The notes under the pieces were generated by a model, which saw nothing but the letters and a program-made list of their open reading frames with translations, had not been told where the DNA came from and made no database searches. A DNA stretch of 54,777 bases from Nitrososphaerota archaeon (GTDB taxonomy: Archaea; Thermoproteota; Nitrososphaeria; Nitrososphaerales; Nitrosopumilaceae): NCBI GenBank assembly GCA_027315065.1, contig DAHUYT010000005.1:1-54777 (forward strand), in the 5' to 3' direction. A program made the translations under genes and the position numbers. Each line of letters begins with the position of its first letter. Position 1 is the stretch's first letter. Below are positions 25,911 to 36,010 of the stretch, one piece after another.

Positions 25911-26549
25911 ATGAAAAAGACAAATCCCATTGAAAAATTAAAAGATCAGGTAAAGAAAGAAACAGGGAAAAATGATCCCGCGCATGACTTTGATCATATC
26001 ATACGAGTTTACAATAACGCCAAAAGGCTCGCAAGGATGGAGCGGACAAACCCAAGACTTGTGCTTGTTGCTGCACTCTTGCATGACATTGTATCTCATC
26101 CAAAATCAGATCCAAGGTCCAAGCATTCATCAGTAGAAAGTGCAGTAAAAGCAAGAAAGATACTATCAAAATACAATTACATGCAAGATGAGATAAAAGT
26201 AATTTCAGATGCAATACAAGACCATAGTTTCTCCAGAGATACAATACCAGAAACATTAGTAGGAAAAATACTTCAGGATGCAGACAGGCTTGACGCAATA
26301 GGTGCAATAGGCATTGCGAGAGCGTTTTCCGTTGGGGGATCTGAAAAAAGATCATTTTATAACAGCATGGATCCTTTTTGCAAGACCAGAAATCCAGATG
26401 ATGCCAAATGGACTTTAGACCATTTTTACAGAAAGTTGTTACATTTGGAGAAAAAAATGAATACAAAGAGTGCAAAAATGGAGGCAAGAAAAAGAACGAA
26501 GATAATAAGACAGTTCCTAGATGATCTCAGAGAAGAGATTTATCCATAA
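25911..26549 (+). CDS. HD-domain phosphohydrolase
   Basis: 212-residue HD superfamily protein. The metal-binding series is H in DPAHDFDHIIRVYNNA, HD in LLHDIV, H in QDHSF and D in LQDADRLDAIG, the pattern of YedJ-like hydrolases acting on nucleotides or phosphates. The ATG at 25911 is preferred to the upstream in-frame TTG at 25902, because a TATA sequence (ATATATAC, about 25879-25886) lies 29 bp before it. It is convergent with the 103-residue protein, with a 10-bp overlap. The substrate is unknown. Confidence 0.9.
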   Translation: MKKTNPIEKLKDQVKKETGKNDPAHDFDHIIRVYNNAKRLARMERTNPRLVLVAALLHDIVSHPKSDPRSKHSSVESAVKARKILSKYNYMQDEIKVISDAIQDHSFSRDTIPETLVGKILQDADRLDAIGAIGIARAFSVGGSEKRSFYNSMDPFCKTRNPDDAKWTLDHFYRKLLHLEKKMNTKSAKMEARKRTKIIRQFLDDLREEIYP

Positions 26550-26851
26550 TCTAGGTATCTTTTAAATCTCTTTTCTATTTCTTGGTTTCTTCCTTTGAGT
26601 ATTCGCTCTATCTCGTCTTGATTTCTTATCTTGATGTGTCTTGTCATATCTACAAATTTTTCATCTTTAGAGTAGATATCAACTAGAGGATCAAGCATTA
26701 CATAATATTCCGCAACTTTGTTTCTGAATTCTTCTATGCTTGGCCTTCTAATCCTGTTTACTCTGAACCATATGGTGGCCCAGCTTGCACCTACAACATG
26801 TGGCAATAGATCAAAAGCCCTATCGATCTCAAATCCTTCGTCGTTTCTCAT
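26540..26851 (-). CDS. 103-residue protein linked to hemB
   Basis: A mostly helical, charged protein (DRAFDLLPHVVGASWATIWF near residue 10; ERILKGRNQEIEKRFKRYL near the end). It shows no membrane segment and no recognised domain. Its ATG overlaps the hemB stop (ATGA), placing it last in sirC-hemA-hemB. The tight coupling suggests a function in, or regulation of, tetrapyrrole synthesis, but this rests on context alone. Confidence 0.72.
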   Translation of the reverse strand: MRNDEGFEIDRAFDLLPHVVGASWATIWFRVNRIRRPSIEEFRNKVAEYYVMLDPLVDIYSKDEKFVDMTRHIKIRNQDEIERILKGRNQEIEKRFKRYLDYG

Positions 26852-27840
26852 TTTTCATCAAGAGCTTTTGCAGCAATCTTTGAGAAATAGGTTATCATCA
26901 TATCAGCTCCTGCCCTCTTAATTGCGGTCAGAATTTCTAGCGTGACCTCTTTTTCATCTATCCAACCCTGCTGCGCAGCAGCTTTTACCAAGGCATATTC
27001 CCCCGATACGCTGTATGCTGATATTGGTATGTTGAACTTTTGCCTTGTCAATGCGATCAAATCAAGATATGCCAGCGCAGGCTTTATCATTACGATATCC
27101 ACACCTTCCGCAATGTCTGTCTCGACTTCCCGCATAGCTTCCTTTGGATTAGTATACGGTAGTTGGTAGGTCTTTCTGTCTCCAAACTGCGGAGCGGAAT
27201 GTGCCATGTCTTTGAACGGAGAATAAAAAGATGACCTATGTTTTGCAGAGTGGGACATTATTGCCACATCTGAAAATCCTGCATCATCAAGTGCATGCCT
27301 TATTGCTTTTACTTGCCCATCCATCATGGCAGACGGAGATACAATGTCTGCACCTGCCTGAGCATGACTTACAGCTATCTTTGCAAGCGTATCAAGAGTG
27401 GAATCATTGTCAATCTTATCACCTTTTACTAGCCCACAATGTCCTGAGATGGTATATTGACATAGACAGACATCAGACATTATCGCAATCTCATTACCCA
27501 GATTTTCCTTAATTTCAGAGATTGTCTTTTGCACGATACCATCTGAAACAAACGCGTGGGTTCCCTGGTCATCTTTGTGTGATGGAATCCCAAAAACCAT
27601 AATAGCTGGAATCTTCAATTCTGCAATAGAATGTATTTCATCCACCACATCTTTTAATGGTAATCTTTCAAAACCAGGCATTGATTCTCCCTGAAGTTTA
27701 GATTTTAGATCTTCTTGTACAAATACTGGACAGACCAAGTCTTTTGGAGAAAGTCTGACCTCCTCTAATAGCTCGCGGATCTTACTAGTCTTTCTTAACC
27801 TTCTAAGTCGTACATTAGGATAAGACATTACAAAAATCAC
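26848..27840 (-). CDS. hemB: delta-aminolevulinic acid dehydratase (porphobilinogen synthase)
   Basis: 330-residue HemB joining two 5-aminolevulinates to porphobilinogen. Visible are the zinc-type metal site in DVCLCQYTISGHCG (three Cys and a His) and both active-site lysines, in SHSAKHRSSFY and VMIKPA. YLDLI and YSVSGEYALVKAA are family phrases. The start is 19 bp after the hemA stop, and the stop overlaps the next gene. It is the third gene of the minus-strand tetrapyrrole operon. Confidence 0.97.
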   Translation of the reverse strand: MIFVMSYPNVRLRRLRKTSKIRELLEEVRLSPKDLVCPVFVQEDLKSKLQGESMPGFERLPLKDVVDEIHSIAELKIPAIMVFGIPSHKDDQGTHAFVSDGIVQKTISEIKENLGNEIAIMSDVCLCQYTISGHCGLVKGDKIDNDSTLDTLAKIAVSHAQAGADIVSPSAMMDGQVKAIRHALDDAGFSDVAIMSHSAKHRSSFYSPFKDMAHSAPQFGDRKTYQLPYTNPKEAMREVETDIAEGVDIVMIKPALAYLDLIALTRQKFNIPISAYSVSGEYALVKAAAQQGWIDEKEVTLEILTAIKRAGADMMITYFSKIAAKALDEK

Positions 27841-27859: not shown

Positions 27860-29113
27860 TTACTCTTTCCTATAGTCAAAGAGCTTTGTAACAGTTCTAA
27901 GAATTTCAGAATCTCCCTGCTCAGACGCTTTTCTTAGGTTATTCATTGGAACTGATATGATGTCTTCCACTATGGCTTGTGTGAGCTGATCAATAATTCT
28001 AATTTTTTGTGCGTCCGTCTCACCAAGCATTTGCAGAGCTTTTTTTAGCTCCTTTACTCGTGCATGATCAATTTCCTTGAAGACGTTCTTTACTATTGGT
28101 TCTATTTCGATCCTCTTCATTGTCGCTTCCATTACTGGTAGTTCCTCGTTAATTATCTTCTCCGCTGACGATACTACACCCATTCTTGTACGCATGTTTT
28201 TGTCCACCATCTCTGCAATCTGATCAAGATTCATCATTTTTATCTTCTTTATGGTTGAGACTCGTTCGTCAACAGTTCTTGGATTTGAGAGATCCATTAT
28301 CAGCATGCCATTTTTGCGTGATTCCATTGCTCCTTTTACTTTATCATATGTTACCAAGAAGTACGGAGCTACGGTTGCGACAAAAAGTATGTCAATAGAC
28401 TTGAAGTTTGTTATTACATCCTCAAACTTGAGTGGGTTTCCTCCCACCGTTTCTGCAAAAGATTTTGAGCGTTCAAATGTTCTACTTGTTATGTTAAAGT
28501 CAATTCCACGTTTTTTGAGGGATTTTGCCACAAGACTTGCGGCCTCACCTGTGCCAATCAAGAGAATGTTTTTGGATTTTAGGTCATCGATGTTTTCTGC
28601 GGCAAGCTTGACTGCCATGGAGCCAATAGATATACTCCCCTTGCTGATTCCTGTTGCTTGTCTTACTCGCGTTCCCACATGGATTGCTTTGTCAAACAAG
28701 GTGTTCAATGCACTACCTGATGCTCGCAATTCCCGTGCTGCACTAATTGACTCTTTTATCTGTCCAAGAATTTGTTCTTCACCAATAACAAGCGAGTCAA
28801 GCCCCGACGTAAGTTTTAGAAGATGGTGGTATGCCTCAGATCCCTGGCTTATCTCCAGATTTTCTTTGAAGACATTTTCTTCAAGGCCCGATACAGACGC
28901 CCACGTCTTTTTTATCTTTTCAATATCTTCATTACTTCCAAATCCAAATAATTCCACCCTATTACAAGTTTGCAATAGCACACATTCCTGTAGTCCAGAA
29001 TATTTTAGGAAGGATTCGTATGCTGAATCAAGGTTTCCAAATGTAAACCTCTCAAGCATGTGTATTGGAGACTTTCTAAAAGTAACTCTAGCGTTGATTA
29101 CATTGCTTGTCAG
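27860..29113 (-). CDS. hemA: glutamyl-tRNA reductase, probably with a CTG start
   Basis: NADPH-dependent reduction of glutamyl-tRNA to glutamate-1-semialdehyde. The catalytic Cys is in LLQTCNRVE; LVIGEEQILGQIKES and the Rossmann LLIGTGEAASLVA follow. The first ATG (29059) would cut the conserved first strand. The in-frame codons upstream read INARVTFRKSPIHM, which fits the family N-terminus, yet no ATG/GTG/TTG exists between that ATG and the upstream in-frame stop. A CTG at 29113-29111 overlaps the sirC stop TGA as CTGA and is the best candidate, giving 417 residues. The reading frame is certain; the start codon is inferred. Confidence 0.88.
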   Translation of the reverse strand: MTSNVINARVTFRKSPIHMLERFTFGNLDSAYESFLKYSGLQECVLLQTCNRVELFGFGSNEDIEKIKKTWASVSGLEENVFKENLEISQGSEAYHHLLKLTSGLDSLVIGEEQILGQIKESISAARELRASGSALNTLFDKAIHVGTRVRQATGISKGSISIGSMAVKLAAENIDDLKSKNILLIGTGEAASLVAKSLKKRGIDFNITSRTFERSKSFAETVGGNPLKFEDVITNFKSIDILFVATVAPYFLVTYDKVKGAMESRKNGMLIMDLSNPRTVDERVSTIKKIKMMNLDQIAEMVDKNMRTRMGVVSSAEKIINEELPVMEATMKRIEIEPIVKNVFKEIDHARVKELKKALQMLGETDAQKIRIIDQLTQAIVEDIISVPMNNLRKASEQGDSEILRTVTKLFDYRKE

Positions 29114-29802
29114 TTTAGATCACCTAACATTTCGATCACTTGTTTCTGTGCTTTTTTTAAATTTCCATCAGCTATTAATTGTTTGATATGATTATCATTC
29201 ATGACATGATAAAGGAATTTTTTGCGCTCAGGAAAAGTGCTGAGTTTTGTCTTTGCTGCCTTTCTAGCAAAGTCTTGTAGTTTTATTTGATAAATGTCCT
29301 CCTTCTTGATTAGTTTCTTGAAGACCTTTTCTGCCTGAATTCTCAATCTGCGCGCCATTGCCGGACTTCGTCCGCCTGTGGATACCGCAATCTGTACAGT
29401 ATCCTGTATGTTTATGACGGAACCGAATGCAAAGTCGCTAACTTCAGGATCGTCGGCAGCATAAGCGTAGCACCTCATCACCTTTGCTTGTTCTACTATC
29501 TTCCTGTTCAGATCCCTATCATCAGTAGTAGCAAGCACTGCAAATGGTTTGTATTTTTTTATAAAATCAGCGTTTACAAGTTTTATTTTTTTAAATTCAA
29601 TCTTTTTTTGTCTGACATATTTGTCTATTTGCCTGTTAGTTGAGTCACTGATAAGAAGAATTTTGCAATCTTGGGTTAGTAATGCATTGACCTTCTTTAG
29701 TCCCTCGTTTCCCCCACCCACGACAATTACCAGATTTCCCTTGAGATTCAGATCAACTATCAATGATTCTCGCTGCCTATGCAAGATATTTATAGATTCC
29801 AT
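29110..29802 (-). CDS. sirC: precorrin-2 dehydrogenase / siroheme synthase N-terminal-type protein
   Basis: 230 residues. The NAD-binding start is LVIVVGGGNEGLKKVNAL, followed by ATTDDRDLNRKIVEQA and the Met8/CysG-like STGGRSPAMARRLR motif. It oxidises precorrin-2 to sirohydrochlorin and may also insert iron. It is first in the operon sirC-hemA-hemB-small protein and divergent from the AhbA/B fusion. The context suggests that siroheme is made here as a heme precursor. Confidence 0.93.
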   Translation of the reverse strand: MESINILHRQRESLIVDLNLKGNLVIVVGGGNEGLKKVNALLTQDCKILLISDSTNRQIDKYVRQKKIEFKKIKLVNADFIKKYKPFAVLATTDDRDLNRKIVEQAKVMRCYAYAADDPEVSDFAFGSVINIQDTVQIAVSTGGRSPAMARRLRIQAEKVFKKLIKKEDIYQIKLQDFARKAAKTKLSTFPERKKFLYHVMNDNHIKQLIADGNLKKAQKQVIEMLGDLN

Positions 29803-29852: not shown

Positions 29853-30866
29853 ATGGACAAGTTGGATAAAGAGATTCTAAATGAAATTCAGTGGACCTTT
29901 CCTCTTGTTCCAAGACCGTATTCTGATATTGCAAAGAAATTTCAAATATCAGACGAAGAATTGATGAATAGGCTACGAACACTCAAAGAGGCCGGCATAA
30001 TAAGACAACTTAGTGCAATCTTTGATACAAGAAGACTAGGTTACAAAAGTGCGCTAGTTGCAATGGCAATTGATGCCGACAAGCTTGACAGTATTGCAAA
30101 TCAAGTAAACAAGCATCCAGGAGTCAGCCACAACTATGAAAGAAATCATGAATACAACCTATGGTTTACCTTGGCCGTTCCACCTGGTTCAGACCTGAAA
30201 TCTGAGATTGACAAGTTTTCAAAGTTACATGGTATCAATAAAGTCAGAATGCTACCAACGATAAAGCTCTTCAAGATTGGCGTAAAACTTGAGATGGTGG
30301 AGGAAAAAAAGGCAGAAGTTAGGCCTGTTGAAGAGAAGAAGAAGATTCGTGAGGTGAAATTTGTTGCAACCGAAGAGGACAAGAAATACATCCGTGAGTT
30401 GCAAAAAGATCTTGAGATAACTGAGAGACCATTTTTGAAGGCTGCGCAGAATCTAGGAATAACAGAGGAGCAGATTCTCGAAAAGGCCAAATATTACGAA
30501 GAAATTGGCGTGATGCGTAGATTTGCAGCCATACTAAGACACAGAGAGGTAGGCTTTTTGGCAAATGGTATGATAGTATGGAACGTACCAGAAGAAAAAA
30601 TAGATCAAGTAGGAGCACAACTAGGAGCATTTCCCCAGGTAAGTCATTGTTATCAGAGACCGGTTTATCCTGACTGGCCTTACAACGTATTCTCAATGAT
30701 TCACTGCAAATCAAACGATGATGCTCAAAAAATTGCGCGTGAGATACAGGAGCAGATAGACGTACACGATTACAAGATATTATTCAGTTCTAAAGAATTC
30801 AAAAAAACTCGAGTTGAATACTTTGTAGAACATGAGTTTAAGATAGAAGAGACGATTACAGCATAA
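29853..30866 (+). CDS. ahbAB: siroheme decarboxylase, AhbA-AhbB fusion
   Basis: 337 residues containing two Lrp/AsnC-like halves. The first (LDKEILNEIQWTFPLVPRPY ... YERNHEYNLWFTLAV) matches AhbA. The second, from about residue 180 (EITERPFLKAAQNLGI ... CYQRPVYPDWPYNVFSMIH), matches AhbB. A charged linker joins them. AhbA/B together remove two carboxyl groups from siroheme to give 12,18-didecarboxysiroheme; here both subunits lie in one chain. The ATG at 29853 is preferred over a GTG 9 bp upstream. It is divergent from sirC. Most described systems have two separate genes, so the fusion is notable. Confidence 0.9.
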   Translation: MDKLDKEILNEIQWTFPLVPRPYSDIAKKFQISDEELMNRLRTLKEAGIIRQLSAIFDTRRLGYKSALVAMAIDADKLDSIANQVNKHPGVSHNYERNHEYNLWFTLAVPPGSDLKSEIDKFSKLHGINKVRMLPTIKLFKIGVKLEMVEEKKAEVRPVEEKKKIREVKFVATEEDKKYIRELQKDLEITERPFLKAAQNLGITEEQILEKAKYYEEIGVMRRFAAILRHREVGFLANGMIVWNVPEEKIDQVGAQLGAFPQVSHCYQRPVYPDWPYNVFSMIHCKSNDDAQKIAREIQEQIDVHDYKILFSSKEFKKTRVEYFVEHEFKIEETITA

Positions 30867-30901
30867 AGTCAATACTGGAATAAAAAACAAGAAAGAGCAT
30901 T

Positions 30902-31297
30902 CTATGATATTTCTATTTTTGGACTGGAAGTAGAACTTAGCACCATCTTTATTTCTCTTACTTTGCTTTTATACATAAAGTACTTTTTACCAGCATCGTT
31001 TGTTGCCCCCGAGATGCGAACAAGTCCCATCTTGTGCAACTTTCTAACCCACCGATATACCTGAGTGAGAGGAATATCATACGTTGTACTGATTTCATAT
31101 GCGGATTTTGGCGAGTCTATACTGCATTCAAGTACTTGAATGGCCTGTTCGTTTGAGATTATCTTCAATATGTCATTACGCATGCTTTCTTGGTCCACAT
31201 CTCTGCCCAAAAGCAGTATCTGCATAGCATCTACACTGTTCCTGTCAATATAACCAAGAAGATTAGAATGCACACATGTGCAAATAGTTGTAAGCAC
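30902..31297 (-). CDS. winged-helix regulator, second gene of an RHH-wHTH pair
   Basis: 131 residues, GTG start directly abutting the stop of the RHH gene. The centre (NEQAIQVLECSIDSPKSAYE then IPLTQVYRWVRKLHKMGLV) is an ArsR/TrmB-like winged helix, followed by a wing (KKYFMYKSKV). The N-terminus, LTTICTCVHSNLLGY, has two cysteines that might sense metal or redox, though the true start could be further in. The ligand and targets are unknown. Confidence 0.75.
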   Translation of the reverse strand: MLTTICTCVHSNLLGYIDRNSVDAMQILLLGRDVDQESMRNDILKIISNEQAIQVLECSIDSPKSAYEISTTYDIPLTQVYRWVRKLHKMGLVRISGATNDAGKKYFMYKSKVREIKMVLSSTSSPKIEIS

Positions 31298-31828
31298 CTA
31301 GTCGCTGAACGTAAATGATATCATACCAGCATTATAGTCAAATTGGACTTTTTTATCAAGAACATCTACAAATATCAAATCAAGAACGGTCTTATGGTAT
31401 AAAGACCAGTTGTCGCCAAGATCATGTTTTACAATAAATGTGTGATAACCATTTTTTATGTTGTGATTTATTTCTATTGAAGAAGCCTTCATTCTCATCT
31501 CAAACCATGACAAAAAAGAGGTTAGGCTAATATCGCCTTTCATAAACAACGCGATATCTCGAACAACATTCTTTCCTATACGGTTAGCCATATCTATGAT
31601 TTCATCTTTTGTCATCTTTCCGAAGAGTTCAACTATTATTGGCTTGGCAACAGGTACCATTCCAACCTTTGATTCAAACATGTCCCATTCCACATATCTC
31701 TTAAAGATCTGATTAACAAACGTATTAAGACTAGTCTCCCTGTGTTCAGACTCTTTCCGTAGTTTATTTAAAATGTCTTCATCAATTCGAAATGTCATAG
31801 TTGATGTTTTTTTAGTAGTCAAGACCAT
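31298..31828 (-). CDS. ribbon-helix-helix DNA-binding protein
   Basis: 176 residues. The first about 50 (TMTFRIDEDILNKLRKESEHR, then ETSLNTFVNQIFKRYVEWD) are a MetJ/Arc-type ribbon-helix-helix. The rest (about residues 55-176) is a mixed domain ending in beta strands (HTFIVKHDLGDNWSLYHKTV) that resembles archaeal heme-NO or V4R-like sensor ends, but no family is assigned. It is directly followed by a wHTH gene with no gap, suggesting two regulators made together. Confidence 0.78.
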   Translation of the reverse strand: MVLTTKKTSTMTFRIDEDILNKLRKESEHRETSLNTFVNQIFKRYVEWDMFESKVGMVPVAKPIIVELFGKMTKDEIIDMANRIGKNVVRDIALFMKGDISLTSFLSWFEMRMKASSIEINHNIKNGYHTFIVKHDLGDNWSLYHKTVLDLIFVDVLDKKVQFDYNAGMISFTFSD

Positions 31829-31912
31829 CCCGTTCTATCTCCCTTGATAAATATAAAGAAGAGCATTATTAAAAATACTTGGCAATATAGGATTCAGAGA
31901 AAGTATAACTCC

Positions 31913-32911
31913 TTATGCAGTTTGTGCAGACGCCTTGAGTTCATACGTAGGCCACTTGTTGAAGAGATCGATTATCTCTTTCTCATCGGACGAATTGAGA
32001 TATTTTCCATCGGACATTTCTGAGAACATTGTAATCTCTTCTTCACTTACAACAGTTGGAAGTACTGACGAAATTCCAGTGTGTGACAAGATAAACTTGA
32101 TTGCAAGTTCGGTGATATTCCACCCGTATCGTTTTGCAATTGGCATAAGCTGATCAACCTTTTGAAGTGATTGTTTTATCCAATCACCAGTCCTTACAGA
32201 ACGATGATCCTTTTCGCTAATCTTTGTGTCTGCCGTGACCTTTCCGGTTAGTATGCCAGAAGCATCAGGGACACGGACAAGAATGCCCACATTGTGTTTT
32301 ACGCCATGCTCTAGCAACAAGTTCCCAGGGTTTTGCTCCAAGATGTTATAGACTGTCTGGACTGCGGTAGTATTTGTAAGATCCATTGCCTGTAGCCCCT
32401 CCTCAGTCCATCCAATAGCTGGGCCCAGAGCAATTTGATAGCTTTTGATAATGCCTTCTTTTACTTTCTTATCTAGATGATCAAATAATTTCTGGTCTCT
32501 AATAGTATGGATCTTTGGATTGTGTAAACCATAGACGTCAAGATAGTCAGTCTGCAGTCTCTCTAGGCTCTTCTGCAAAGCAAATTCAGTAAATTCTGGA
32601 GTGAATTTCTGTGGAAGTTCCTTGTGACCTATCTGTTCATTGCTGTAAATATCGTATCCATATTTGGTGGATATTACAACCTCGTTTCTCATTTCAGAGA
32701 AGACTTCACCAATCAGTTGCTCGCTTTTTCCTCTTCCATATATATCCCCAGTCTCGAAATAATTTATTCCCAAATCATATGCGCGTTTTAGCAATCGCCT
32801 AGCCTCATCGTCTTCAACCTTTTTTCCCCACCAATCAAGACCCAAGGTCCACGCTCCAAATCCAATCTCAGAGACCTTTATTCCACTTTTACCAAGTGTC
32901 CTGTACTTCAA
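31913..32911 (-). CDS. aldo/keto reductase
   Basis: 332-residue NADPH-dependent reductase with a TIM-barrel fold. The catalytic tetrad is visible: Asp and Tyr in FETGDIYGRG, Lys in ISTKYG and His in YGLHNPK. The phrases IGFGAWTLG and the cofactor-binding FILSHTGISSVLPTV agree. It is the last gene of the operon chlorite dismutase-like/DUF1802/AKR, with a 4-bp overlap to DUF1802. The substrate is unknown. Confidence 0.93.
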   Translation of the reverse strand: MKYRTLGKSGIKVSEIGFGAWTLGLDWWGKKVEDDEARRLLKRAYDLGINYFETGDIYGRGKSEQLIGEVFSEMRNEVVISTKYGYDIYSNEQIGHKELPQKFTPEFTEFALQKSLERLQTDYLDVYGLHNPKIHTIRDQKLFDHLDKKVKEGIIKSYQIALGPAIGWTEEGLQAMDLTNTTAVQTVYNILEQNPGNLLLEHGVKHNVGILVRVPDASGILTGKVTADTKISEKDHRSVRTGDWIKQSLQKVDQLMPIAKRYGWNITELAIKFILSHTGISSVLPTVVSEEEITMFSEMSDGKYLNSSDEKEIIDLFNKWPTYELKASAQTA

Positions 32912-33456
32912 TTTACAATTCTCCTAAACTCTTCCAATTTTTGTTGTAGTTCTGTATCGCTCAAAACAGACTTTTCAGAGTCAGAGTTTACATTTAATTC
33001 TATCCAAGATTTGCATCCATGATAATCTGGTAAGACCTGTATCTCAGTTGGTGTAATCTTGAAAACCTTGAGAAAAATAGCCTTCATTGGTTTAGACGGC
33101 ATCCAATTCATCCTTTCCATAATATAAGAATCACCCCATATATGAAATGGCGATAGTTGTTCAATTTTTTCAATTGAGAAAACATCGTGCTCCTCAATTA
33201 CCTGCGCAGTAGATGTAATTCTATTGTACCCTTCCTCAGGTTTGCCTTCTCTTACATCGGCAAGATACCCATAATATTGCGATTTCAGTGATGCGTTATC
33301 CTGATGCTCATGAGTTGGAAACAGCGCAAACTTTGTTGCCTCAATCCTAAATCCAGATTTTGTCTCAAGTATTCCACCCTTTCTCAATAAAACAGTCTGA
33401 TTTCCGTTCTCAAGCGCTTTTACTACAGTCGCCCATTCCTTTAATGCCTTCATCAT
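32908..33456 (-). CDS. DUF1802 family protein
   Basis: 182 residues. The opening ALKEWATVVKALENGNQTVLLRKGGILE and the later FALFPTHEHQ match the DUF1802 family, whose function is unknown. It is a soluble alpha/beta protein. It overlaps both neighbours by 4 bp, so it is translationally coupled between the chlorite dismutase-like protein and the aldo/keto reductase. Confidence 0.83.
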   Translation of the reverse strand: MMKALKEWATVVKALENGNQTVLLRKGGILETKSGFRIEATKFALFPTHEHQDNASLKSQYYGYLADVREGKPEEGYNRITSTAQVIEEHDVFSIEKIEQLSPFHIWGDSYIMERMNWMPSKPMKAIFLKVFKITPTEIQVLPDYHGCKSWIELNVNSDSEKSVLSDTELQQKLEEFRRIVN

Positions 33457-34124
33457 CCCAGACTCCTTATCAGGGAAATAAGGTCTTTTTTTACACAGAC
33501 TATCATAGGTGTATCAACCTGAACATATTCACTAACACGGGTCTCTCTCAAATCCATTATCAAGTCCTGAAACTTGTCCAAGTTATCAGTTTCAAATGCA
33601 AGCATAAAATCTTCATCGTGTATTCCAAAAGAGTACGTAGTGTTCAAATTTACTTCGGGATATTTTTGTCCAACTGCAATGTGTTCTGACATCATCTCTT
33701 TTCTTTTTTCGAGCGGGAGAAGATACCATCCTCTAGTTTTGATAAAAGGATATACTATTACATATTTTCTTTGTTCTTCACCACCAAGCCATCCCCGTGT
33801 TGTTGAATTTTTTGCATACACTGATGGTCTTGTGCATGAAAGATAAACATGCGTTGGAACTATGTATTTACCAAAAACTGTCAAGTATAATTTTGAGATT
33901 ACGTCCTGTATCTCATCTATAGATTCCGATGCAAACCAAAGCAGAAACTCTGCGTCATCTCGTAGTCCCAGTGTAGAATATGATCTATAAGGCATCTGCG
34001 AATTTTTTAGTATGATTTCTACTTCTTTTGCAGACTCGTCCTTTGCAAGATCTGCCATCCATCGCCATTTCGGATCAACCTTAAAGAATGAGAAATTGAA
34101 GAATGTTCTAGGATGTTCACTCAT
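33453..34124 (-). CDS. chlorite dismutase-family heme protein, coproheme decarboxylase-like
   Basis: 223 residues, two ferredoxin-like halves. The catalytic-type motif YPFIK gives Tyr125 and Lys129. The proximal-ligand-type His148 is in RKEMMSEHIAVG, and TTYSFGIHDEDFMLAFE is the family signature. YPxxK with this His is the pattern of coproheme decarboxylase (ChdC/HemQ) rather than chlorite dismutase. It would convert Fe-coproporphyrin III to heme b. It is the first gene of a three-gene operon; the TATA-like TTATTTAAAAT lies about 25 bp upstream. A pure heme-sensor role is the alternative. Confidence 0.85.
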   Translation of the reverse strand: MSEHPRTFFNFSFFKVDPKWRWMADLAKDESAKEVEIILKNSQMPYRSYSTLGLRDDAEFLLWFASESIDEIQDVISKLYLTVFGKYIVPTHVYLSCTRPSVYAKNSTTRGWLGGEEQRKYVIVYPFIKTRGWYLLPLEKRKEMMSEHIAVGQKYPEVNLNTTYSFGIHDEDFMLAFETDNLDKFQDLIMDLRETRVSEYVQVDTPMIVCVKKDLISLIRSLG

Positions 34125-34939: not shown

Positions 34940-36010
34940 TTAGTTCTTCCTCTGTGAAGCTAACTTGATTAAACTTTCTATTTTATTCTGTCCTAAATCC
35001 AATTTTATTCCTGCCTGTTCCGCAGGAGTATTACCAATAGAACTATGATTTCTGATAAAGTTGTAGTGAATCCTAAATGCATCTATTGTTTTCTGAGCAG
35101 ATTCTTTGTGATCCATACCTCTCATTACCTTCTCTCTGTCTCTGAAAACTCCATTCAACCTTTCAACTTTCTGATTCAAGCCTTTGTGTCTCACACTTAC
35201 TGACCTGATATTTCTAGTTCTTGGGCTTGCCATTGTATGATATTCCTTCTCAAATGCCTCATTGTACGAATGTAATCCGTCATGGATTATGGCTATTGGT
35301 TTTGGGGTTTTTGATTTTGCATCCTGAAAAACTGCTCTAGCATCTGCAACTTCTCTTTTGAGAAACCTTACTAGAAATCCAAAATCTTGTAGTATTATCC
35401 ATCATGTTCCATAACCATTGATAGTGACCTTTGTCTGTCTGCTCTTTTCTGACATGGACTACCATTTCGTCAATGTGGTAAACGCCTGACATTTCTTTTG
35501 GAACTAGAGAATCTACAAATGGAGTTACTACTTTCTCGAACTTGCGAATCCATCCTAGAATAGCAACATGGGATACGCTTACTCCATAAAAGAACTTGAT
35601 GTGTTCTTTGATCTTTCGTAGTGGTATGCCTTTGAAGAACAAGTCTAGTGAAGCGGTTATGATTTTAGAGTTTACCTTGTTCTTGGCAAAGCCTAATTGT
35701 CTGACCATTTTGCATTACATAACTTGCACTTGAATCTCTGAATATCACCTGACTTATTATGCCTGATTCCTGTCTTGATTATCTCCATAGAACCGCATTT
35801 GCAGATTACTTCTTGCTCTGTTTCAATCTCTTTTACATCTGAATTTGGTACTATCTTTCGTAGTTGTTTTGAGATTAAGACTGATTTGATGTGTTTGCAA
35901 TCACCTACTTTTACATGGTTGAAAATGTAATCAGGACAAGAACAAGTCCAGTTGCCATCAGACTTGTATGGATGTTTTACATCATACCAGAAATTCGTAT
36001 CAAAACACTT
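34940..36010 (-). pseudogene. IS6-like DDE transposase, broken by two frameshifts
   Basis: Pieces of one transposase lie in order on the minus strand. First, at about 36010-35705, a zinc-finger part (CSCPDYIFNHVKVGDCKH of SWIM type, then CKCGSMEIIKTG...CKLCNAKW). Second, at 35708-35337, an HTH plus the first catalytic Asp (VYHIDEMVVHVR). Third, from about 35350, IAIIHDGLHSYNEAF with the second Asp and GLNQKVERLNGVFRDRE with the Glu, ending at 34940. The frame shifts near 35705 and again near 35350, and no clear start codon precedes the zinc part. Terminal repeats were not found. The element is inactive as read. Confidence 0.8.

Follow-up and report, generated by a model that had tools for sequence, protein, structure and literature searches.

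A chlorite dismutase-family protein as a candidate coproheme decarboxylase in a siroheme-derived heme pathway of ammonia-oxidizing archaea

A candidate last step for heme synthesis in ammonia-oxidizing archaea

Ammonia-oxidizing archaea (AOA) are abundant nitrifiers whose route to heme is called open in print, in passages of two papers (PMC3004389, PMC4010524). Here we propose that their chlorite dismutase (Cld)-family protein acts as a coproheme decarboxylase (ChdC) and ends a hybrid, siroheme-derived and oxygen-compatible pathway to heme b, a reading to which we assign a probability of about 0.8 on comparative sequence evidence. The gene in question lies near that of a fused siroheme decarboxylase (AhbAB) in a 54,777-nucleotide stretch of DNA (hereafter, the window) from a Nitrososphaerota archaeon (GenBank assembly GCA_027315065.1, contig DAHUYT010000005.1). 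The source organism is a Nitrosotalea-like AOA with a draft genome (G000) of 1.74 Mb in 86 contigs, 97.7% complete. As far as our literature searches go, what is new is the assignment in AOA, the cluster of AhbAB, Cld and an aldo/keto reductase (AKR), the attachment of related Clds to different upstream modules, and the AhbC step as a defined gap. The proposal would link the puzzles of the AOA heme route and of the AOA Cld: the last step is assigned, and the gap is narrowed to one reaction with testable candidate genes.

In the proposed pathway, SirC would oxidize precorrin-2, which would become siroheme, and fused AhbAB, whose family membership is clear from profile matches and whose activity is predicted, would decarboxylate the ring C and D acetates. 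The acetates of rings A and B would then be removed from the resulting didecarboxysiroheme, forming coproheme, the reaction carried out by AhbC according to part of PMC3942049, here presumably via an enzyme not recognizable as AhbC. Peroxide would then oxidize coproheme bound in the Cld-family protein, with Tyr125 as the putative radical site, and this protein, in place of AhbD, would convert both propionates to vinyls, yielding heme b, as its residues, context and relatives suggest. An initial annotation of the window had suggested such a ChdC-like last step. That suggestion finds good support in presence and absence patterns, synteny, active-site residues and the coproporphyrin context of relatives, whereas the supply of coproheme by AhbC that it assumed is not supported; a ChdC finishing the siroheme route is not new in kind, given the genetics of Haloferax.

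Cld accompanies AhbAB where AhbC and AhbD are not recognizable

One sample of 398 genomes of the phylum was searched alike with profiles for Cld, AhbD (TIGR04545) and AhbA. An AhbA match of E 1e-20 or better defined an AhbAB-positive genome, of which there were 146 (73 from the AOA families, f1-f3, and 73 others). No AhbC/D-type enzyme was found in 76 of the 146, and every one of these 76 carries Cld; among the 70 with an AhbC/D-type enzyme, Cld occurs in 19 (16 of f22, a family we take to be Sulfolobaceae-like, and three of f15). Among the matches listed, 74 genomes of the same order have Cld (73 of f1-f3, and G338 of f4), and all but G338 have AhbAB as well. With up to five candidates per genome scored, no f1-f3 genome was among the TIGR04545 matches listed at E 1e-20. 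Three of the 19 f22 genomes (G067, G081, G244) are without the AhbC/D type and keep Cld, while the 16 others keep the AhbC/D type; loss of this type therefore occurred more than once, in f22 separately from AOA.

The initial annotation had seen no radical SAM AhbD in the window, and BLAST of three reference proteins against the window open reading frames (ORFs) of at least 100 aa agrees, finding neither AhbD nor AhbC. It had also suggested searching the whole genome for ahbC and ahbD; this search was done and recovered no recognizable AhbD (best TIGR04545 match, 57 bits) and no recognizable AhbC (best TIGR04546 match, 55 bits) in the source genome. Both of these best matches are nearest the PTO1314 radical SAM family, far under its cut-off, and the other two model matches of G000 correspond to Tes, the tetraether lipid synthase, and to a protein resembling QueE, so that none of the four was retained as a hidden AhbC or AhbD. 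The curated cut-offs of TIGR04545 and TIGR04546 are too strict to decide alone, only one of 14 control genomes passing in each search, and score gaps were therefore compared instead. In the 121-genome order sample used for the AhbC model, full AhbC proteins score 493-551 bits and occur in six genomes (G458, G399, G420, G418, G446, G412), with no full score in f1, f2, f3 or f67; the AhbC supply assumed at the outset thus finds no recognizable enzyme in these families. Matches at 1e-18 occur in 40 of the 121, with partial scores of 67-127 bits in four f3 genomes and G447, 87-175 bits in f4, f72, f78 and f79, and up to 231 bits in some f71, f74 and f75 genomes; all but the six full ones are probably other SPASM-type proteins. 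HemE and ferrochelatase likewise had no match in five AOA genomes (G000, G120, G386, G215, G197), so that neither the AhbC and AhbD of a complete AHB pathway nor the HemE and CpfC of a coproporphyrin pathway are recognizable in G000.

The proximity of a siroheme decarboxylase to a Cld-family gene, from which the initial annotation had started, proved sound: the decarboxylase is a fused AhbA-AhbB, separated from Cld by a 2.6-kb gap. In 66 of the 73 genomes of the AOA families, Cld and AhbAB are convergent and lie within 6 kb of each other (at most 3.4 kb between matches); their pairing is therefore not due to chance. The seven exceptions comprise genomes with the two genes 11-17 kb apart (G283, G227), far apart (G108, G311) or on different contigs (G397, G334, G362). 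Among 80 named AOA Cld loci, AhbAB is present in the fetched stretch of 64, and the AKR gene is missing only from L084 and L103, which end soon after Cld. Of the 16 loci without AhbAB in that stretch, some are shortened; in others of full length, such as L087, L098 and L118, the linkage has genuinely been lost. The two genes are not neighbours in any of the 19 f22 genomes, being far apart or on separate contigs.

Related Clds are attached to two upstream modules

The strongest argument for ChdC function is that related last enzymes are attached to two upstream modules, both of which would end in coproheme. Twenty stretches taken from additional families of this order, together with six earlier loci, were compared with reference proteins. 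In G338, which has no AhbAB match at 1e-10, Cld sits inside a hemA-hemC-hemD-hemB-Cld-hemL-hemE-hemH run (families were scanned for all of these but hemD, and hemA is under the cut-off). There are 17 such coproporphyrin-type loci, from f4, f79, f72, f69 and f78 of the order and from f17 and f59 of the wider phylum, and hemE and/or hemH stands beside Cld in 15 of them; in L185 and L140 a contig border follows right after Cld, and these were classed by other genes or by the genome. No AhbAB was found in these coproporphyrin-type stretches, the whole-genome AhbAB search covering G338 and not all of the others; at other sites in its genome, G071 holds a weak AhbA match (3e-13) and one of AhbD type (1e-72).

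Clusters of the AhbAB type with Cld and AKR also occur outside f1-f3, in f67 (G398, G411) and in g187 of f76 (G447, G455). In the latter two genomes, the Cld, AKR and ahbAB genes overlap in the same orientation, and sirC and hemA follow within 16 bases. A third cluster type has AhbC and an adjoining AhbD-like protein and no Cld (G458, G446, G399; AhbAB is present in G446 and G399), although the name of the G458 protein that served as AhbD reference is uncertain, since it fits TIGR04053 better than the AhbD model. None of the six order genomes with full AhbC is among the 85 of 121 that have Cld.

In a tree of 57 Clds, in which long branches were flagged, 15 of the 17 coproporphyrin-linked proteins group together (support 100/99), and the other two, from G071 and G410, fall with the f22 group under a long-branch warning. 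The AhbAB-linked proteins also group together, with a support of only 92/65. Because Clds are linked to either AhbAB or coproporphyrin genes, two upstream routes would feed one last enzyme.

Two side observations concern these loci. A radical SAM protein like the AhbC partner of G458 adjoins hemA in the coproporphyrin-type clusters of G410, G478 and G472, where it may bear on coproporphyrinogen oxidation (the comparison held no CgoX reference). In addition, G392 has two similar Cld copies (L139 890-1585 and L140 3514-4190), one of them at a contig end, which may be an assembly duplicate.

Active-site residues and fold of the Cld-family protein

The YPxxK and His pattern that had been read in the Cld-family protein is present as Y125-P-F-I-K129 and H148. 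In an alignment of 119 rows (118 from AhbAB-type genomes, including a second copy from G000 itself, plus G338), Y125, K129, W133 and H148 are invariant; the same four residues are kept in all 17 coproporphyrin-linked rows, and every one of the 57 sequences in the tree has the Tyr. When aligned with the 6xub fragment, Y125 falls at the position of the catalytic Y135 of CdChdC, near propionate 2; K129 corresponds to the Lys or Arg of ChdC that pairs with propionate 4, and H148 to the proximal His. We take residues 149-172 of the window protein to be where the distal Arg of true Clds would be expected, and no Arg occurs within them, L160 and N161 being found there. According to part of PMC7611857, the Tyr and the Lys or Arg matter for ChdC catalysis, and true Clds carry Ile in place of this Tyr together with a distal Arg. 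The same source describes a distal residue that differs by clade, and this residue therefore does not define ChdC as a whole; in the coproporphyrin-linked archaeal Clds it is Ile in 15 of 17 and Gln in two.

An AlphaFold model of the protein built from 37 sequences (pLDDT 80, pTM 0.77) has as its best Foldseek match in the PDB the ChdC 9mhq (E 4e-19, TM 0.83), and the best matches by E-value are all ChdC (9mhq, 9miq, 9mhr, 8qwc, 6xub/6xuc). The solved structures nearest in sequence are actinobacterial ChdC, as they are for the fold. The closest named Clds, 94-95% identical, come from one Nitrosopumilaceae metagenome-assembled genome and two further AOA (one of them a Nitrosotalea).

We note in passing that G000 has a second intact Cld (L001 1462-2166, contig C76) in which the four catalytic residues are kept, and is the only genome with two Clds among the 74 of the same order in the phylum sample. 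This second Cld branches near Nitrosotalea-like Clds, on a longer branch.

Several points weigh against our reading. On the side of the counts, 85 of 231 genomes, with weaker AhbA matches (E 1e-10 to 1e-20) that are probably AsnC-type regulators, were left out beforehand, and some of these genomes (e.g., G177, G134) lack both Cld and any strong AhbD-type match. The limit for an AhbC/D-type enzyme outside f1-f3, 1e-45, was set after the scores were seen, the limit within f1-f3 being 1e-20; the phylum counts are not phylogenetically independent, and a Fisher value computed from them does not give the probability of the hypothesis; and 19 genomes hold both Cld and an AhbC/D-type enzyme. On the side of the protein, the position of the Firmicute distal Gln is occupied by Leu (117 of 119 rows) or Ile (two rows), a departure from the distal residue of ChdC, and the column of the actinobacterial distal His is not conserved in the 119 rows. 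On the actinobacterial HemQ model (HemQ_actino), the window protein scores 142 bits, under the cut-off of 235; the G338 relative from a coproporphyrin cluster itself scores only 129. Chlorite dismutases (Nitrospira Cld) follow ChdC among the structural matches with a similar fit, TM about 0.84, and the fold alone is therefore indecisive. Finally, coproheme production in AOA is itself something that we infer, the AhbC step being without a known enzyme here.

Candidates for the step in place of AhbC

The AKR beside Cld is a plausible participant in the missing step. In a survey of 60 chosen genomes, its orthologue is found at E 1e-97 to 1e-225 in all 17 order genomes that have AhbAB and Cld (13 of f1-f3, two of f67 and two of f76), and the 18 order genomes of other types that were tested have no close orthologue or only much weaker matches. 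In f68, f75 and f76, nine further genomes, six of them with full AhbC, give a best match of 6.8e-24, with seven lacking any at 1e-20; eight f4 and f72 genomes give a best match of 3.5e-26, and the coproporphyrin-type G410 (f79) one of 5e-66. An AKR tree splits the wider AKR clade from paralogues (100/100). The gene lies directly beside AhbAB where Cld has moved away (G311, L257). At the positions we take to be the AKR catalytic tetrad, Tyr, Lys and His are kept in all 119 rows, and Asp is replaced by Glu in 110. Distant AKRs (33-42% identity) are found in all 19 f22 genomes, with or without AhbC/D, as well as in genomes of f15, f13 and f25 (two each) that have AhbD-type enzymes; their presence alongside such enzymes argues against the AKR simply replacing AhbC. 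To two f15 genomes in which an AKR lies about 0.7 kb from AhbAB we give little weight, as a small ORF on the opposite strand intervenes and identity is about 33%.

Radical SAM proteins are the other source of candidates. Each of eight AOA genomes searched contains 12-23 matches to radical SAM proteins. In G000, 12 of the 17 were scanned, and eight exceed the cut-off of another family (CofH, MqnC, a CofH-family protein, MiaB-like, BioB, RlmN, TYW1 and Tes). An unassigned 293-aa radical SAM protein on contig C86 of G000 (L205 730-1611) shows 52-84% identity across seven of these genomes, which span three families, and had no NCBIfam match at 1e-30. As a separate observation, two G000 proteins (L203 409-1527 and L206 468-1589) match MqnC, over the cut-off, and MqnE, under it, of the futalosine menaquinone route.

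DUF1802, the remaining member of the Cld run, is an unlikely missing enzyme, as 16 of the 80 named loci (two of them shortened) showed no copy; its structure model (pLDDT 82) matched nothing in the PDB significantly, with ASCH-like proteins coming closest at E about 0.07.

Alternative explanations

A chlorite dismutase-like role for the Cld in detoxification or oxygen production, combined with an AOA heme route that ends in an unrecognized AhbD, seems improbable to us. The family name, the chlorite dismutases among the structural matches and a passage in PMC10432482 that calls the function of AOA Cld-like enzymes unknown would fit such a role, but the window protein lacks an Arg in residues 149-172 and has Tyr where Clds have Ile (per part of PMC7611857). 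Moreover, the single copy in nearly every f1-f3 genome and the linkage to hem genes suit biosynthesis, and Cld relatives are located in coproporphyrin clusters. We rejected a true chlorite dismutase because of the active-site residues and gene context. It is more improbable still, to the point of being hardly credible, that AOA obtain coproheme from a coproporphyrin route (HemE, CgoX, CpfC) with AhbAB serving another purpose; HemE and ferrochelatase do stand beside related Clds in other families of the order, but the failure to match either in the five AOA genomes searched largely refutes such a route for those five.

Under the reading of Cld as ChdC, two equal rivals would account for the AhbC step. 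A divergent radical SAM protein missed by the AhbC models is a tentative possibility, which the number of radical SAM matches per AOA genome, the conservation of the L205 protein in seven of them and the partial AhbC-model matches of 68-127 bits in four f3 genomes favor; the assignment of eight of the 12 scanned G000 proteins to other families and the lack of a radical SAM gene beside AhbAB in the window count against it. That the AKR of the Cld run performs or enables removal of both acetates is somewhat doubtful: its close orthologue in each of the 17 tested order genomes that have AhbAB and Cld, its staying by AhbAB where Cld has moved, and the overlapping Cld, AKR and ahbAB genes of G447 and G455 all fit, but genomes with AhbC/D-type enzymes (16 f22, two f15, two f13, two f25) also hold relatives of 33-42% identity, and another is found in the coproporphyrin-type G410. 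The AKR may also merely clear an aldehyde by-product, or be unrelated. We know of no AKR that cleaves such a C-C bond, and hence of no precedent for one as catalyst of acetate removal.

A broader version, that AOA and some other aerobic archaea use a siroheme route in which no radical SAM enzyme takes part, from AhbAB through an unprecedented, AKR-requiring deacetylation of didecarboxysiroheme to ChdC, is speculative and rather unlikely; if true, it would be a fourth distinct heme pathway variant. The AKR would there be the catalyst, or would clear glyoxylate from an oxidative cleavage by ChdC itself. Chemically, a ring hydrogen next to the acetate-bearing carbon might be abstracted and the carboxymethyl group lost, leaving the ring aromatized, and the fragment released in air could become glyoxylate, an AKR-type substrate. 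The candidate genes can be tested in E. coli with a published assay based on high-performance liquid chromatography, which part of PMC3942049 describes.

Organization of the locus

The genes around AhbAB are listed in Table 1. Cld, DUF1802 and AKR lie on the same strand, and because neighbours among them overlap by four bases, the three look like one operon. Just upstream of Cld, at 34940-35708, are transposase remnants, with integrase-core (PF13683) and IS66-type (PF03050) pieces.

Table 1. Genes of the AhbAB-Cld region of the window, and radical SAM genes from coproporphyrin-type loci (positions in the locus named).
Feature	Position	Strand	Evidence and distribution
Small conserved ORF, 103 aa, function unknown, downstream of hemB	26540..26851	-	51/80 named AOA loci, many others shortened; no Pfam match
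hemB, porphobilinogen synthase	26848..27840	-	NF006762 450 bits (cut-off 297); PF00490
hemA, glutamyl-tRNA reductase	27860..29059	-	TIGR01035 324 bits (cut-off 210)
sirC, precorrin-2 dehydrogenase-type	29110..29802	-	TIGR01470 107 bits (cut-off 62); PF13241, PF14824
ahbAB, fused siroheme decarboxylase, 340 aa	29844..30866	+	NF040708 (AhbA) 285 bits (cut-off 140); NF040707 (AhbB) 276 bits (cut-off 125)
TrmB-like helix-turn-helix regulator	30902..31297	-	PF01978; only in part of near relatives
ORF, 176 aa	31298..31828	-	No Pfam match; only in part of near relatives
AKR, candidate for the AhbC-less step	31913..32911	-	PF00248; constant Cld neighbour, 78/80 named loci
DUF1802 protein, optional run member	32908..33456	-	PF08819; 64/80 named loci
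Cld-family protein, proposed ChdC, 223 aa	33453..34124	-	PF06778 194 bits
Radical SAM gene like G458 AhbC partner	L181 2768-3940; L182 4052-5194; L183 3182-4516		

Comparison with known systems

Park et al. (2014) state, in a passage of PMC4010524, that more screening of AOA genomes for the genes of heme synthesis is needed, leaving the route open, and a table in PMC5817080 lists seven AOA with one chlorite dismutase-like enzyme apiece. Among the open PubMed Central papers covered by our searches, we found none assigning the AOA Cld to heme synthesis. HemQ and AhbD are named as options for the last step of the siroheme route in part of PMC8587615.

The AHB pathway of Methanosarcina and Desulfovibrio resembles that of AOA in AhbAB and SirC and differs in AhbC and AhbD, which were not found in AOA. 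Siroheme decarboxylase genes without AhbC and AhbD are shared with AOA by Natrialba magadii, which is also reported to have a chlorite dismutase gene (part of PMC3403918), and by Haloquadratum walsbyi and Sulfolobus acidocaldarius: Storbeck et al. (2010) describe, in a passage of PMC3004389, both of these and N. maritimus as without both nirJ-type genes, with other ahb-nir genes present. The f22 genomes differ from AOA in the separation of Cld from AhbAB.

The closest functional parallel is found in haloarchaea. Haloferax volcanii, like AOA, has AhbAB-type siroheme decarboxylases and a ChdC, and part of PMC5746218 describes its use of ChdC (PitA) aerobically and AhbD anaerobically: deletion of pitA impairs aerobic growth and deletion of ahbD anaerobic growth, and heme helps both. 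Across haloarchaea, chdC occurs in nearly all and ahbD in two thirds, according to part of PMC8305020. Unlike the AOA protein, PitA is fused to an ABM-like domain, and H. volcanii keeps AhbC and AhbD; in AOA neither is recognizable, and Cld is linked to AhbAB and AKR. The coproporphyrin-dependent pathway of Gram-positive bacteria differs from AOA in HemE and CpfC, which were not found in the five AOA genomes searched, and resembles the proposed AOA route in its last enzyme, ChdC, with hemE-hemH-Cld clusters present in other families of the same order.

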